NCBI GenBank assembly: GCA_016875015.1 | Contig: VGSJ01000016.1 | Span: 1-46,540, forward strand | Source: Deltaproteobacteria bacterium | GTDB lineage: Bacteria; Desulfobacterota; Desulfobaccia; Desulfobaccales; 0-14-0-80-60-11 | Length of the DNA stretch: 46,540 bases | Direction: 5' to 3' | In this document: positions 10,779-45,497 of the stretch, one piece after another | Layout: each line of letters starts with the position of its first letter | How positions within the stretch are numbered: the first letter of the stretch is position 1 | The notes under the pieces: model-generated | Database searches by the model: none | Told to the model about the DNA's origin: nothing | The model's input: the letters and a program-made list of their open reading frames with translations, nothing else | Translations under genes and position numbers: made by a program

Positions 10779-10904
10779 TGTGGTGCCCTCCTCCATAGGA
10801 CCTGGGGTTGCGTTTAGGTTCAGTTATAGGCATGGTGCACTTGACCAAAAATTCCCTATAATGGGGATATTACATGGTAGGCTGGCCCCATCCCACAATA
10901 CGTC

Positions 10905-38930: not shown

Positions 38931-40103
38931 CTATTTAGCCGTCTTGAACTTGCCGTCCTGGACCTGGATGATGACCATGGAATCCAGACCCAGGCCGTTG
39001 TGGTCCTCGGGGCTCAGGTTATAGGTGCCCGAAATCCCCACATAACCCTTGGTCCCCTCGATGGCGGCGCGCAGGGCCTTGGGGTCGGTGCCCGCCTTCC
39101 GCATGGCATCGGCTACGATGGTAATGGCGTCCCAGGCGTAGCCCGAGTGGGTATTGATGGGGAACTGCTTGTCGAAATGGTAGACGTCCGTGTAGAGGCG
39201 GATGAAGTTCTGGATGACCTTCTTCTGGGCATCGGTATCCGGCAACTCGGCGGCCACCATCAACTTCGTGGACGGCATGCGGTCCCCCTCGGAGGCCTTC
39301 CCGGCCAACTGGATATATTCCGGTCCCGGCTGGCCGTGGCACTGGAACAAGGGGATGGTTATGCCCAATTGGGCCTTGTTCTTGGCCACGATGGCCCCCG
39401 CCGGCCCGATGGTCCAGCAGATGATGGCGTCAGGACCGGCGTTCTTGATCTTGGTGAGCTGGGGGGTCATGTCCGTGTCTTTCGGGCCGAAAGACTCTTT
39501 GGCCACAAAGGTGACGCCGTAGTCCGGGGCCAGTTTTTCCAACCAGACGGCCCCGTCCTTGCCAAAGGGGTCCGACGCGGTGAGCATGGCCACTTTGGTA
39601 AGTTTCTTCTCTTTCAGGTATTCAAAGAGCTTCGTGATGGCGGTGGAGGAGCGCTGGGGCGACTTGAAAATATAGGTGAAGGGCCCGGTCTGCTGCATGA
39701 TGGGCGGATCACCCCCCACGGTCATGAAGATCGGGATGCCCGCCTCTTCCACGATCTTCTTCACCTGCATCCCCTCGCCCGTGGAGGTGGGCCCGATGAT
39801 GGCCGCCACCTGGTCGGAGTGGATAAATTTCTTGGCGATGGTGGCGGCCTTGGCCGGGTCGCTCTCGGTGTCGCCGATAATCAGCTCCAGGGGTCTGCCA
39901 TTTATGCCCCCCGCCTTGTTGATCTGGTCCACCGCCATTTCCGCCACCAGCTTGGTGGGCGTGCCGATGGGCGCCACCGGTCCCGACAGGGCGAAAAAGG
40001 CCCCTATCTTGATGGGTTGCTTTGGGTCCTTAGCCTGGGCGCCGCCAGCCACGAAAATTACCAGGGCCGCGGCCACGAGAACCCTTGACAGTACTCGGCT
40101 CAT
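38931..40103 (-). CDS. Branched-chain amino-acid type ABC substrate-binding protein
   Basis: A 390-residue periplasmic LivK-like binding protein. The signal peptide (VLVAAALVIFVAGGAQA) is followed by IKIGAFFALSGPVAPIGTP and AEMAVDQINKAGGINGRPLELIIGDTESDP, then AAIIGPTSTGEGMQV, the peripheral-binding-protein class I pattern. Start ATG 40103 has GGAGGGAGGACAAG upstream, a strong ribosome site. The ligand could be branched-chain or aromatic acids, amides or other carboxylates: many Desulfobacterota Liv-type systems serve aromatic or short-chain acids. The only other ABC component in the window is the LivF-PaaK fusion about 1.8 kb upstream on the same strand; permeases LivH and LivM and ATPase LivG are not here. 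Confidence 0.93.
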   Translation of the reverse strand: MSRVLSRVLVAAALVIFVAGGAQAKDPKQPIKIGAFFALSGPVAPIGTPTKLVAEMAVDQINKAGGINGRPLELIIGDTESDPAKAATIAKKFIHSDQVAAIIGPTSTGEGMQVKKIVEEAGIPIFMTVGGDPPIMQQTGPFTYIFKSPQRSSTAITKLFEYLKEKKLTKVAMLTASDPFGKDGAVWLEKLAPDYGVTFVAKESFGPKDTDMTPQLTKIKNAGPDAIICWTIGPAGAIVAKNKAQLGITIPLFQCHGQPGPEYIQLAGKASEGDRMPSTKLMVAAELPDTDAQKKVIQNFIRLYTDVYHFDKQFPINTHSGYAWDAITIVADAMRKAGTDPKALRAAIEGTKGYVGISGTYNLSPEDHNGLGLDSMVIIQVQDGKFKTAK

Positions 40104-40206
40104 CTTGTCCTCCCTCCTCAGAAAATATAATCTCATTGATGGCTTAGTTTAGGCCATAATGTCAACTCAAAAATCTCATTTCAGGCAATTATACCGCGTT
40201 CGTTTT

Positions 40207-40390: not shown

Positions 40391-40921
40391 TTAAGGCGCG
40401 AGGAAGCCAAAGATTATCTGCTGATTGCGCAGGGCATAAATTGCCGACTTGATGGAGAGATTTTGCACCTGGAGATATCCTTCTCTGGACTCGCGTAAGG
40501 CTGCGTCGCCCGCCTCTGCCTGCCCCTGGGCTTGCAGGTCCAGGGCTTGCTTCTTCTTAGCGGCGGCGGCCGGAAGCAGGCGATCCGCCTGGGCCTGGGC
40601 GTCGACGGCCAGTTTTTGGTTGATGGCCACCTGCTGATCGTCTTTGGGGGAAAGCTGGCGCTCCGCCAGTGCCGAGGCGCATTCTTTCTGAAGGAGCGTA
40701 AATAATTCATTGGACTGTTTCACCAGGGTCAGGGCCGCGGAAAGATTACCGGCAGTTAATTGCTGTTGCGCCTGTTCCAGGAGCGAAACCGCCCGGCCGT
40801 AGAGCTTAGCCGGCTCAGGTGCAGGGGGGGTGGCGGTTTGGGCCCAGCCGGGGCCCACCAGGGCCAGGGCCAATAATAGCAGGCAGATGACGTAGGCGCC
40901 GCGGGATACGATCATCATCAC
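40391..40921 (-). CDS. Secreted helical protein, function unknown
   Basis: A 176-residue protein with a signal peptide (YVICLLLLALALVGPGWA) and an almost entirely helical mature part: AVSLLEQAQQQLTAGNLSAALTLVKQSNELFTLLQKECA, then AINQKLAVDAQAQADRLLPAAAAKKKQALDLQAQGQAEAGDAALRES. Repeated Ala, Gln and Leu suggest TPR-like or coiled-coil helices. It ends AIYALRNQQIIFGFLAP. No family recognised. MMM codons at the start leave the exact ATG open (40921, 40918 or 40915). Confidence 0.7.
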   Translation of the reverse strand: MMMIVSRGAYVICLLLLALALVGPGWAQTATPPAPEPAKLYGRAVSLLEQAQQQLTAGNLSAALTLVKQSNELFTLLQKECASALAERQLSPKDDQQVAINQKLAVDAQAQADRLLPAAAAKKKQALDLQAQGQAEAGDAALRESREGYLQVQNLSIKSAIYALRNQQIIFGFLAP

Positions 40922-41007
40922 AAGTCACCTCAATGAGATTTGGTGTGGTCTTGCCGGCCGCTCCGGGTAATCCCGGCGCCGACTGCCTTGACCGGTCAGG
41001 GGTGGGA

Positions 41008-41060
41008 TAAACACCGGTGCTTGACCACGCAGCGCAGCATTTCCCAGACCAATTTAACAG
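41008..41060 (-). pseudogene. Decayed fragment of a PaaK-like 3' end
   Basis: Read on the minus strand it gives LVWEMLRCVVKHRCLSHP and then a stop, matching the LSREVRYVVKHRLMVTP segment of the PaaK half of the nearby fusion (41865-43976); the shared DNA core CCGGTGCTTGACCACG is identical. Only about 18 codons are recognisable. It lies on the far side of the MNT/HEPN module. Confidence 0.5.
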
Positions 41061-41064
41061 GTTA

Positions 41065-41480
41065 TTACAAGGGTCTGACGTCCTCAGGCAACAGGCCGAG
41101 GACAGCTTCGTAAACCTCCCGGGCAATCTGGAGGGCTTCTTTAGTCTCATCGAAGGATGGTTCTTCCGGGTCTCCCGGGTAGCGAAATTTCCAGGCATAC
41201 TCCGTGAGGGGCGCGGCACAATCAATGAGGGCTCGCAAAGTTGAATCCACGTCGAGGCACTGCTCACCCAGTTCTTCCAGGCTGTGGGTCTTGCGAAAAG
41301 GCACGCTGTGCCACATGAGAAAGGATTGTAACACTTTTCCACTGCCTGTTGACAGTGAACGGCGGCATCAGCCAAAAGCGGTGGACTGGCGGCTAAATCG
41401 TGTTTTGCGGCCCTGAGGTCCGTGGCCGCCTTGCGAAGCCATCCCTGCGTGTCGGCCACCAGAATTGGATCAGCCGGCAT
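41065..41480 (-). pseudogene. HEPN-domain gene with a frameshift
   Basis: The HEPN protein of a second MNT/HEPN pair. The first part reads MPADPILVADTQGWLRKAATDLRAAKHDL then VHCQQAVEK; in the next frame it continues VLQSFLMWHSVPFRKTHSLEELGE, LIDCAAPLTEYAWKFRYPGDPEEPSF and ends LLPEDVRPL. The two parts join if one A is added to the AAAA run at 41335-41338 (T run on the plus strand): GTG GAA AAA GTG would replace GTG GAA AAG TGT. So it is either a recent one-base loss, a sequencing error in a homopolymer, or a frame change during translation. It overlaps its MNT partner by 11 bases. The protein resembles the intact HEPN at 10905-11315. Confidence 0.85.
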
Positions 41481-41811
41481 ATAATAATTTTCCTTCCCGG
41501 ACGATGGTCGCAGGCAGTGAGGCGGGAAGATGCAGGCGGCTGTCAAAGGCCTCCCTCGTCCAGACCAGGATGTCGGCAGCCGCACGGGTGCCGCGCAAGG
41601 CCTGATATGCCCGACGACTACGCCGGCGCTCCGGGGGAACATCATCAGGAACCACGATCATCAGGTCATAATCGCTGTCCGGACCGGCATCGCTTCTGGC
41701 CTTCGAGCCGAACAGATAGATGCGCTCCGGCTGGAAGGCCTTGACGAGGCGGTGCAGAATCTCACTCAGCACCGGATCGCCAGCTTGCAGGTTCCCTCTC
41801 CAACTAACCAT
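41470..41811 (-). CDS. Minimal nucleotidyltransferase (MNT)
   Basis: A 113-residue MNT-type nucleotidyltransferase. Active-site motif: ERIYLFGSKARSDAGPDSDYDLMIVV (G-S-x(n)-D-x-D); the third acidic residue is in ADILVWT. It ends IVREGKLLYAG, the family's usual tail. The ATG at 41811 is only about five bases after TATAAT on its strand, so it may be translated with little or no leader, or start further in. It overlaps the frameshifted HEPN gene and, if HEPN is dead, may be an orphan antitoxin. Confidence 0.85.
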   Translation of the reverse strand: MVSWRGNLQAGDPVLSEILHRLVKAFQPERIYLFGSKARSDAGPDSDYDLMIVVPDDVPPERRRSRRAYQALRGTRAAADILVWTREAFDSRLHLPASLPATIVREGKLLYAG

Positions 41812-41864: not shown

Positions 41865-43976
41865 CTATACCACAGAATCCGTGATCCGGCCATCGAAAAC
41901 CCGCTGGCTCTTGCGCTCGGAGCGGGGGAGTTCGCCGTAGCCCACCACCGCCACCTCCGGCGTGACCATGAGCCGGTGCTTGACCACGTAGCGCACCTCC
42001 CGGCTCAGCTCGTCGGTGCGGCCGGCTTCCACCCCTTCGGCCCGCTCCACCTTGAGGAGCATGTGGTCCCGGCCGGCTTCGTCCCGGGCCAGGTGGATCT
42101 GGTACTCGGAACCCAGGCCCGGGACCTCCGAGAGGATGCGGTCGACGCTGGAAGGATAGATGTTCACCGCCCGGAACTTGAACATGTCGTCGGTGCGGCC
42201 CCGGAGGCGGGAGTGCCGGGGCAGGACGGCGCCGCAGGTGCAGGGCCCCGGGATGATGCGGGTGATGTCCCCGGTGCGGTAGCGGATCAGGGGCGCGGCC
42301 TCCTTGCACAGGGTGGTGACCACCATCTCCCCCCACTCGCCGTCGGGGAGCGGCGTCAGGGTCTCCGGGTCCAGGATTTCCAGGAGGTAGTAGTCGGCCC
42401 AGTAGTGGATGCAGTCGTGGTCCGGGCACTCGATGCCGGTCCCCGGCCCGTAGAGCTCCGTCAGGCCGGGGATGTCGAAGAGTTCGACGCCCCCCAGGAG
42501 CTCCGAAATCTTGCGGCGCATGGACACGGAGGAGCGCTCGGAGCCGTAGATGACCTTCTTCAGATTGATCTTGTCGGCGATGCCCCGCTTGTTGACCTCT
42601 TCGGCCATCAGGAGTCCCATGGAGGCGGTGCAGCACAGCACCGTACTCTGCAGGTCCACCAGGAACTCGCACTGCAAATCCACATTCCCCGGCCCCACAG
42701 GTATTACCAAGGCCCCCAGGGCTTCGGCGCCCGCCTGGAAGCCCGCCCCGGCGGTCCAAACCCCGTAGCCCACCGCGATCTGCACCCGGTCCAGGGGGGT
42801 CACTCCAGCCATCTCGTAGGCCCGGGCGAAGAAGTGGCGCCAGTCCGCCAGGTCCTTGCCGGTGTAGCACATGATCTTGCGCTTGCCGGTGGTGCCGCTG
42901 GAGGCGTGGAGGCGCACGATCTGTTCAAAGGGCACGGACCTGAACGAAAAGGGGTAGCCGTCCCTGAGGTCCTCCCCCGTGGTCAGGGGGAGTTTTTGTA
43001 AGTCGGCCAGGTCCAGGATATCCGCAGGGGAAACCCCGGCGGCGTCCAGGTGGGCCCGGTAAAAGCTGGAGCCCTCAAAGGCGTGGCGCACCGTCCATTT
43101 GAGCCCCGCCAGCTGGTGGGCCTGGAGTTCGCCCCCGGTCTGGAAGGGTGGCATAAAGGTCTGCTTGCTCAAATTCGGCTTCTCCAGTCTGATATTGGTA
43201 AATCCCGCCGCGCCCAGCCGCGACGCGGCCGGGTTGTTGTCAGAGCCCGCTCCCAGGAAGGCCCGGCGTAGTTCCGGGTCCAACAGGAGTTCGTGGCTTT
43301 TGCCCTGGCCCACGATCCGGCCGTTGGCCAAAAGATACGCGGACCGGGAGGAGGTGAGGGCCCGGGCGGCGTTTTGCTCCACCAGGAGTATGGTAACCCC
43401 GCCCCGGGCAAGCTGCTTGATGATGTCAAAGATCTCGTCGGTGATCAGCGGCGCCAGCCCCAGGGACGGCTCATCCAGGAGCAAAAGCCGGGGCTGGGCC
43501 ATCAGGGCCCGGCCCATGGCCACCATCTGCTGCTCCCCGCCGGAGAGCGTGTTGCTCCGCTGGCCGGCCCTTTCTCGGAGCTTGGGGAACCGGGCATAGA
43601 CCGCGGCCAGGCGCCGGGCCAGCTCCAGCCGGCTTATCTTCAAGGCCAGGGACCCCAACTCCAGGTTCTCCTTGACCGTCAGGTCCCCGAACATCTCCCG
43701 GCCCTCGGGGCACAGGGCCACGCCTTTGGCCGCCATGGCCGCGGGGGACGAGCCGGTGACCTCGAGGCCGTCCAGGAAGATGCGGCCGCCCGACGGCGGC
43801 GCCAGCCCCATGACGGCCTTGAGCAGGCTGGTCTTGCCAGCCCCGTTGGCCCCCACCAGGGCTACGGTCTCGCCTGGCGCCACCGCCAGGTCGATGCCGA
43901 ACAGGGCCTGCGCGGCGCCGTAATGCACCGTCAGGTTGTCGATGCGGAGTAAGGAGTCTTTTGTTAAATGCACCAT
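41865..43976 (-). CDS. LivF ABC ATPase fused to phenylacetate-CoA ligase
   Basis: A 703-residue fusion. Residues 1 to about 245 form a complete LivF-type ABC ATPase: Walker A GANGAGKT (42-49), Q-loop CPEGREMFGDLTVKENL, signature LSGGEQQ (144-150), Walker B LLLLDEP (164-170) and the LivF-type LLVEQN. After a linker (about 245-290) the rest is a phenylacetate-CoA ligase (PaaK-like, ANL superfamily): SSGTTGKRK (359-367), YGSERSSVSMRRK, PGLTELYGPGTGIEC, YRTGDITRI and GRTDDMFKFRAVNIYPS, with a basic ERKSQRVFDGRI tail. Both halves keep catalytic residues. Liv and PaaK genes are often neighbours in anaerobes; here they are one protein, suggesting uptake coupled to CoA activation. The LivK-like gene downstream is a likely partner. 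Confidence 0.92.
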   Translation of the reverse strand: MVHLTKDSLLRIDNLTVHYGAAQALFGIDLAVAPGETVALVGANGAGKTSLLKAVMGLAPPSGGRIFLDGLEVTGSSPAAMAAKGVALCPEGREMFGDLTVKENLELGSLALKISRLELARRLAAVYARFPKLRERAGQRSNTLSGGEQQMVAMGRALMAQPRLLLLDEPSLGLAPLITDEIFDIIKQLARGGVTILLVEQNAARALTSSRSAYLLANGRIVGQGKSHELLLDPELRRAFLGAGSDNNPAASRLGAAGFTNIRLEKPNLSKQTFMPPFQTGGELQAHQLAGLKWTVRHAFEGSSFYRAHLDAAGVSPADILDLADLQKLPLTTGEDLRDGYPFSFRSVPFEQIVRLHASSGTTGKRKIMCYTGKDLADWRHFFARAYEMAGVTPLDRVQIAVGYGVWTAGAGFQAGAEALGALVIPVGPGNVDLQCEFLVDLQSTVLCCTASMGLLMAEEVNKRGIADKINLKKVIYGSERSSVSMRRKISELLGGVELFDIPGLTELYGPGTGIECPDHDCIHYWADYYLLEILDPETLTPLPDGEWGEMVVTTLCKEAAPLIRYRTGDITRIIPGPCTCGAVLPRHSRLRGRTDDMFKFRAVNIYPSSVDRILSEVPGLGSEYQIHLARDEAGRDHMLLKVERAEGVEAGRTDELSREVRYVVKHRLMVTPEVAVVGYGELPRSERKSQRVFDGRITDSVV

Positions 43977-44026
43977 TTTATTTATTATCTGTTCCTATAT
44001 AATTATCCAATTATATTACGTTATTA

Positions 44027-45163
44027 TTAGAATGGAATATCATCATCCGAAATCTCAAATTGAGGCTGTATTTCTTTGAATAAATCATATGTTGGCTTAA
44101 GCGCCACCTTCCAACCTTGATAATTATCACTTTCCATTACCAATCGTAATGAATTATAAAATCTTATATCTCCTTTTTTAAGGCCATCTTTAATTGCAGA
44201 TATAATTGATATTGATGGTTTTTCTGATAATTCAAATAAATTTGAAAAGAAAAAGGCGAAAATATAATCCTGTCCATATTTATTAGCTGAGCGCAATTTT
44301 CCTCCTAACGCTATGCTTAAATCACTTTTTAGTTAAAAATAACGAAAGATATTTCTTGACCATGTTCCCAATGATCCTCCGAGACATTTAGACCTTTTTA
44401 TATCGTATGAACCATCTCTAATCGACTGTATTAATTTGTTCTCAATTCTAAGTCGAGAAACCTCAGAGTATCGGTTCCACCATTCTGCAGGAAAACATTG
44501 CAAAACTATTCTAACAACTTGATCATCATTTGTACATTTAAGTTCTTCTGAAATAATTTCAATTGCTTGCTTAATCTCTTCATCATTAAGTACCTTAGAA
44601 ATTGCATAAAAAAATAATCGTAATTTTTTTCCTTCTCCTGTGGTTATTTTTCTAAAAACCTCGACAAAAACTTCAAACCTCGTCTTTATAGGTATTTCGT
44701 CAATTAATAATTCAGCATATCTTTCTTTTTCAACAAAATCAGGTTCAAACACCCTTTCTAAGAATGATTCCATAGTAAATAAAGACTTTGATTTATCAAT
44801 GATTTTAATTAAATAATTCAAGAATATAATTATGGCTACGGCGTCCATTTTATCATCTATGTGCTTTTCATGGCTCCTAGGATTTCTGATTGCTTGATAT
44901 ATCCCTCTTAATATTTGTTCGATACCTTTCTGTTCATTAATGTCCGATTCTGTCTCTAACTTATTAACTTTAAGTTTAGGAGATTTACCACCTAATGATT
45001 CGCCAACTAGAACTACTCCATCACTTTGCAATCCTGTTTTTTTCCTTAAGAGGTTCCCCAAATAATGAATAGCATCTATAATGCAACCAGTATAGTTTCT
45101 ATTTGTATAACAATTATCGATTGCCTGCCACAGCCTTTGATCCAATAAAGTTTCTAAGTTCAT
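44027..45163 (-). pseudogene. AT-rich abortive-infection-like gene split by an in-frame TAA
   Basis: The first frame (45163-44333, 276 residues) starts MNLETLLDQRLWQAIDNCY and contains QILRGIYQAIRNPRSHEKHIDDKMDAVAIIIFLNYLIKIID, a HEPN-type segment with RNPRSH (R-x4-H), as in TIGR02391/Ymh abortive-infection proteins. It stops at TAA 44333-44335. The same frame continues without another stop for 101 codons, through LKSDLSIALGGK and RSANKYGQDYIFAFFFSNLFELSEKP, to 44027. That continuation keeps the same AT-rich codon use and looks like one protein, so the stop seems to be a point mutation in a longer gene of about 378 codons. The region is far poorer in GC than its neighbours, a sign of transfer. 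If the first part alone works, it may still be a HEPN RNase. Confidence 0.7.
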
Positions 45164-45497
45164 TTTTCTAACCCCTTATTTGACTCGCATTACGGGCAGT
45201 TGACGATTTTATCCCGGCCCCAGGAGGTTAAGAGGTTTTACCGGGGTCTCTTTTTTATCAGCAATCATAATCAGTTCGCATTATATACCGTGCTTTACTG
45301 CATGTCGAGTGAGACTATCTTGTCCGATTGCCGCTTAGTGAGTGTAGGGGCGGGTTTTAAACCAGCCCCTACAGGGGCCTTCATTTTTAGGGGTGGCACT
45401 TCGTCGGTCATGCCTCGCAATCTCTAAAAAAAGCAGTGATTCTGGCTAACCAACATGGTAACCTGAACCATCGAGAAGGAATTATCGGCAAAGACCC
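45164..45497. repeat. Spacer with a GTAG-headed palindrome
   Basis: 333 bases without a gene. 45344-45372 is a third copy of the 29-bp palindrome (GTAGGGGCGGGT arms, one mismatch in the right arm). Nothing else recognised. Confidence 0.8.

Follow-up and report, generated by a model that had tools for sequence, protein, structure and literature searches.

The window analysed here, a stretch of 46,540 nucleotides from a draft genome of a Deltaproteobacteria bacterium (contig VGSJ01000016.1), carries on its minus strand a gene whose 703 codons run without interruption from an ATG at 43976 to a stop at 41865 (Table 1). The original prediction, made from the letters alone, had read this frame as a LivF ABC ATPase joined to a ligase of the phenylacetate-CoA type, both halves being complete, and the comparison with domain models bears this out. 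The first half was matched by the Pfam family ABC_tran (4e-28) and by the NCBIfam LivF model over its whole length (2e-68), as well as by the ABC transporter structure 1ji0. In the second half, AMP-binding was recognised at residues 355-553 (1e-9) and AMP-binding_C_2 at 603-696 (2e-23), the PaaK model TIGR02155 was covered entirely by residues 282-696 (4e-110), and solved phenylacetate-CoA ligases resemble this half along its length. All six quoted motifs are intact in the translation, i.e. Walker A, signature and Walker B in the ATPase (GANGAGKT, LSGGEQQ and LLLLDEP) and the adenylation motifs SSGTTGKRK, YRTGD and GRTDDMFK in the ligase. The earlier description in two halves is refined in one respect, as the ligase part begins only around residue 269 and is preceded by a linker.

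Table 1. Features of the fusion locus, in positions of the window.
Feature	Position	Strand	Remarks
livF-paaK fusion gene, 703 aa	41865..43976	-	single open frame, two complete domains; same fusion in at least 39 distinct loci
LivF-type ABC ATPase half, residues 1-242	43251..43976	-	ABC_tran 26-170; NCBIfam LivF model 6-241; 1ji0 5-242
Linker, residues 243-268, core NPAASRLGAAGFTNIRLEKP	43173..43250	-	near-invariant in 39 fusions
PaaK-type AMP-forming CoA ligase half, residues 269-703	41865..43172	-	AMP-binding, AMP-binding_C_2; 4r1l 1e-93
GGAG, Shine-Dalgarno-like, candidate internal ribosome site for free PaaK	43182..43185	-	position conserved in most fusions
TTG, candidate internal PaaK start codon	43170..43172	-	aligns with start of free PaaK proteins
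livK-type periplasmic binding protein, same system	38931..40136	-	Peripla_BP_6 5e-61; 74-75% identity to the fusion-adjacent livK of L056

The LivF half reached 230 bits against an equivalog cut-off of 441, and the PaaK half 368 bits against 646 for TIGR02155. Since both scores are far above chance yet under the NCBI equivalog cut-offs, 'LivF-type' and 'PaaK-type' are, by these scores, the right wording for the two halves, and one that leaves the exact substrate of the ligase unspecified. The genome of the window holds a single copy of the fusion, together with ordinary separate livF, livG and paaK genes (clusters C50 and C10) at 36-49% identity to the fusion halves; its other PaaK-like proteins are about 40% identical to the PaaK half.

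Parsing of the open reading frames in the matches recovered the same domain order, in one frame, in at least 39 distinct loci including that of the window, with 67-93% identity to the window's fusion among the matches listed. Full-length, stop-free matches with the same arrangement, 80-93% identical, occur in another 13 genomes of the window's family and in one genome from a different family of its taxonomic order, and a scan of all species gave further loci at about 70-74% in Desulfosarcina, Desulfopila, Desulfofustis, Desulfoprunum, Desulfuromonas, Malonomonas, Geoalkalibacter and others. Two of the carriers are complete isolate chromosomes, those of Desulfopila sp. IMCC35008 and Desulfosarcina alkanivorans PL12 (NZ_CP050700.1 and NZ_AP021874.1). 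In an even sample of the phylum, the full fusion was present in 16 of 395 genomes, and the PaaK half alone, usually without LivF, in about 140, these making up the bulk of the other matches. Matches over both halves in Rhodobacteraceae (L093-L109) were rejected as fusions, being two separate ORFs of low identity.

Full-length homologues and a conserved linker across Desulfobacterota, which the original prediction had proposed to look for, were thus both found, and in several families. The observations that it had named as refuting are not borne out either: none of the 39 loci has a stop or frameshift between the halves, and the relatives with separate genes fall outside the fused clade or resemble secondary losses. 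The genome of the window is a draft of 148 contigs, but a merging of two genes by an assembly join or a sequencing error is vanishingly improbable, because the identical single frame, with its conserved linker, recurs in at least 39 distinct loci from independent projects and on two complete chromosomes; the same recurrence excludes chance. As judged from sequence comparison, the fusion is genuine, old and conserved across several Desulfobacterota families, whose members reduce sulfate or metals. Searches of the open-access literature turned up no account of it, and within that literature it is apparently undescribed.

The gene order around the fusion was compared by clustering the neighbours of 36 loci, and a recurrent arrangement livH-iorA-iorB-livM-livG-[livF-paaK]-livK was observed. 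The family assignments of the operon were confirmed, with IorA at 1e-188; against the IorA model TIGR03336, scores of 628 and 644 bits lie just under the cut-off of 651. The livHMG genes that had been expected near the fusion in relatives are present, livG directly upstream and livH and livM, along with livK, in the same operon, so that the fusion has there the complete set of partners of a HAAT importer. In L061, the last sense codon of livG ends at 10780 and the first start codon of the fusion begins at 10783; the livG stop and the fusion start thus have one base in common, an overlap typical of translational coupling. The pair iorA-iorB stands in the conserved operon beside an aryl ligase of AMP-forming type, the arrangement of IOR-linked aryl-acid salvage, and no recognised ring-degradation gene belongs to the operon as it recurs among the 36 neighbourhoods. 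Downstream of the fusion, YkuD transpeptidases are common to L088 and L092, as is a histidine kinase with a sigma-54 response regulator. Another fusion was seen in a related liv-paaK cluster, at 2827-4641 of L151 (genome G099), where livM and livG are joined (BPD_transp_2, ABC_tran and BCA_ABC_TP_C) and immediately followed by an unfused paaK and by livK.

In the LivF tree, all fused halves are placed on one side of a branch with 99% support. The fused PaaK halves can form a single clade, provided that two free copies nested among them (L085 and L086) are read as having lost their LivF portion (AU test, p 0.71); with these two copies excluded, a fused clade was rejected (p 0.002). This tree is consistent with one fusion event and subsequent losses. 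What the state before the fusion may have looked like is suggested by genome G079, in which livM, livG, livF, a stop, paaK and livK follow in tandem in an unfused orthologous arrangement. Paralogous livF and paaK neighbours separated by stop codons, at 35-42% identity over both halves, are common in the fusion-carrying genomes (G016:C13, G013:C6, G006:C11, G010:C33 and G004:C36), livF-paaK adjacency being therefore a general theme. One locus of the window's family, L037 in G018, has a split fusion: the LivF frame departs from the PaaK frame at residue 229, part of the linker is missing and PaaK could then start at the internal ATG described below; this may be a real fission or an assembly error.

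The window's own genome has kept all the operon partners, at 65-77% identity to the intact operon of L056, but distributed over three contigs: livH-iorA-iorB-livM on C30, livG alone amid unrelated genes on C6, and the fusion with livK on C16, i.e. the window, where livK is the only partner remaining near the fusion. Intermediate stages of this dispersal are represented by L056 and L055. A 1273-aa open frame flagged in this genome for iorA and livM was rejected as a fusion, since it resolves into separate ORFs. Directly upstream of the fusion lies an AT-rich island (44000-45250; GC of about 0.29-0.35 against 0.65 around it) that looks recently acquired and contains a Hypoth_Ymh-family gene (44333-45163, minus strand) and a small ORF (44027-44296, minus strand). 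Between the fusion and livK, at 40815-41811, a nucleotidyltransferase gene (MNT, 41470-41811, minus strand) is paired with a HEPN gene, which may be frameshifted, its domain being spread over two frames near 41331-41334.

The linker (NPAASRLGAAGLTNIRLEKP) is conserved on a par with the catalytic motifs. Its core, NPAASRLGAAG[LF]TNIRLE, has a weighted majority frequency of 0.94 over the 18 residues from 248 and ranks 17 of 686 windows; the linker was seen in the fusions only, and none of the inspected free PaaK genes is preceded by it. In the AlphaFold model of the fusion, which is of low confidence overall (mean pLDDT 66.8) and too weak to carry a claim on docking, the linker is unstructured with a pLDDT below 50, and this would fit a hinge or a partner-binding segment.

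At the end of the linker, the GGAG box precedes an in-frame start-type codon by 9 bases in the window, and most fusions are alike in this. It is plausible, although we lean slightly against it, that this internal ribosome site at residue 269 is used and that the gene yields a free PaaK besides the fusion, hence a membrane-bound and a soluble ligase, an outcome compatible with coupled import and activation as well as with mere co-expression. Residue 269 is encoded by a start-type codon in 38 of 39 fused loci (ATG in 34, TTG in 4) although the neighbouring residues vary, codon uniformity is in excess at E265 and K266 (0.33 and 0.30, against a mean of 0.06 with sd 0.12), and anti-Shine-Dalgarno pairing upstream of it is stronger than at other in-frame ATGs (-5.9 against -4.1 kcal/mol); moreover, the free PaaK of L086, a copy that falls within the fused clade, begins at this Met, and L037 is split at that point. 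The fused loci behind these statistics are, however, kin to one another and hence not independent rows. In single genes, an equally strong upstream box is found at 7-79% of the other in-frame start-type codons, the local contrast of M269 is merely 12th of 693, L146 has no start-type codon at this residue, and the codon could be a relic of an ancestral start.

Taken together, these data are somewhat in favour of a Liv-type importer with a built-in aryl-acid CoA ligase, which would trap the imported aryl acid as a thioester and hand it on to IorAB; we infer the substrate, the direction, the docking and the trapping or coupling. The fusion would be the bifunctional subunit of a Liv-type ABC importer of the HAAT family, its LivF half pairing with LivG beneath the permease formed by LivH and LivM. 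Attached through the conserved linker, the PaaK half would use ATP and CoA to turn the imported acid, for example phenylacetate, indoleacetate or a similar compound, into a CoA thioester near the membrane, and the uptake would become irreversible. IorAB, from the same operon, would interconvert arylacetyl-CoA and arylpyruvate and so provide a link to aromatic amino acids, probably by salvage, the overall route being import, activation and carboxylation of aryl acids to arylpyruvates. Salvage is favoured over degradation by the AMP-forming type of the ligase and by the lack of recognised ring-degradation genes in the conserved operon. In support of this importer-ligase are the single clade of fused LivF halves, the repeated operon, the retention of all partners in the window's genome and the conserved linker. 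Counting against it are the loss of operon integrity in that same genome and the high frequency of the unfused PaaK half, by which the chemistry of PaaK does not need the transporter; in addition, the direction of the IOR could be oxidative.

The original prediction had placed the ligase at the exit of the permease, where an imported acid would be trapped. Such a coupling would predict a conserved fusion and liv partner genes, so it is partly supported by a real fusion that has been conserved together with its linker and that the liv partners adjoin in relatives. Benzoate, which had been considered along with phenylacetate, is less favoured, iorA-iorB pointing to arylacetates and arylpyruvates of aromatic amino acid metabolism. 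With a join of this age and conservation, and no artefact, there may be a physical coupling between import and chemical trapping. A more specific version, in which the near-invariant linker either brings the ligase to the exit of the permease or links it with the transport cycle for a coupled uptake and thioesterification of aryl acids, with the internal start adding free ligase, is quite doubtful.

Amino acids are common ligands of LivK and HAAT proteins, and the system could be degradative: aromatic amino acids or arylpyruvates would be imported, IorAB would oxidise them to arylacetyl-CoA and PaaK would recover leaked arylacetate. The IORs of fermenting organisms do operate in the oxidative direction (PMC13285125). 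We consider this role unlikely, since an AMP-forming ligase favours thioester synthesis and downstream degradation genes are not conserved in the operon.

It is rather improbable that the fusion serves co-expression or stoichiometry only, linked neighbours having lost a stop codon and the ATPase and the ligase acting independently, with no channelling or trapping at the membrane. The frequency with which paaK comes right after livF, separated from it by a stop as in the orthologous unfused arrangement of G079, and the wide occurrence of free PaaK orthologues agree with such an origin, but a passive join needs no constraint of the kind that has kept the linker almost invariant across a long divergence, and the fusion persisted even where the operon is dispersed.

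The proposed importer with a built-in ligase can be compared with several known systems. Like the LivF of E. coli LivKHMGF, a HAAT system, the fusion has a complete LivF-type ATPase with all motifs, in an operon of the same partner genes in relatives; it differs by its C-terminal CoA ligase and conserved linker and by a score under the LivF equivalog cut-off, and the ligand of its system is probably not a branched-chain amino acid. The ligase shares with PaaK (TIGR02155; PDB 4r1l, 2y4o and 2y27) a whole-length match, the adenylation motifs and the AMP-forming family, whereas it sits behind an ABC ATPase and scores under the equivalog cut-off. In Bacteroides, an IOR colocalises with an AMP-forming ligase that was assayed there as an arylacetate-CoA ligase, and a role of the pair in making aromatic amino acids, as in methanogens, has been argued for (PMC13285125). 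Here, iorA-iorB likewise adjoins an aryl ligase belonging to that enzyme type, but the pair is combined with a complete ABC importer, to whose ATPase the ligase is fused. Finally, the peroxisomal ABCD transporters, which are reported to be physically associated with acyl-CoA synthetases (COMATOSE-LACS6/7, Pxa1/2-Faa2; PMC8201181), also combine ABC import with CoA activation on the exit side; these are separate proteins, eukaryotic and acting on fatty acids, and the likeness is an analogy of working, not of membership.

For these peroxisomal transporters, a coupling between ABC import and the activation with CoA has been discussed with separate proteins, whereas here both parts lie on one chain. 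As the join and its linker are retained across several bacterial families, vectorial thioesterification becomes directly testable, and the fusion suggests an aryl-acid specificity for a class of importers usually annotated as branched-chain amino acid transport.
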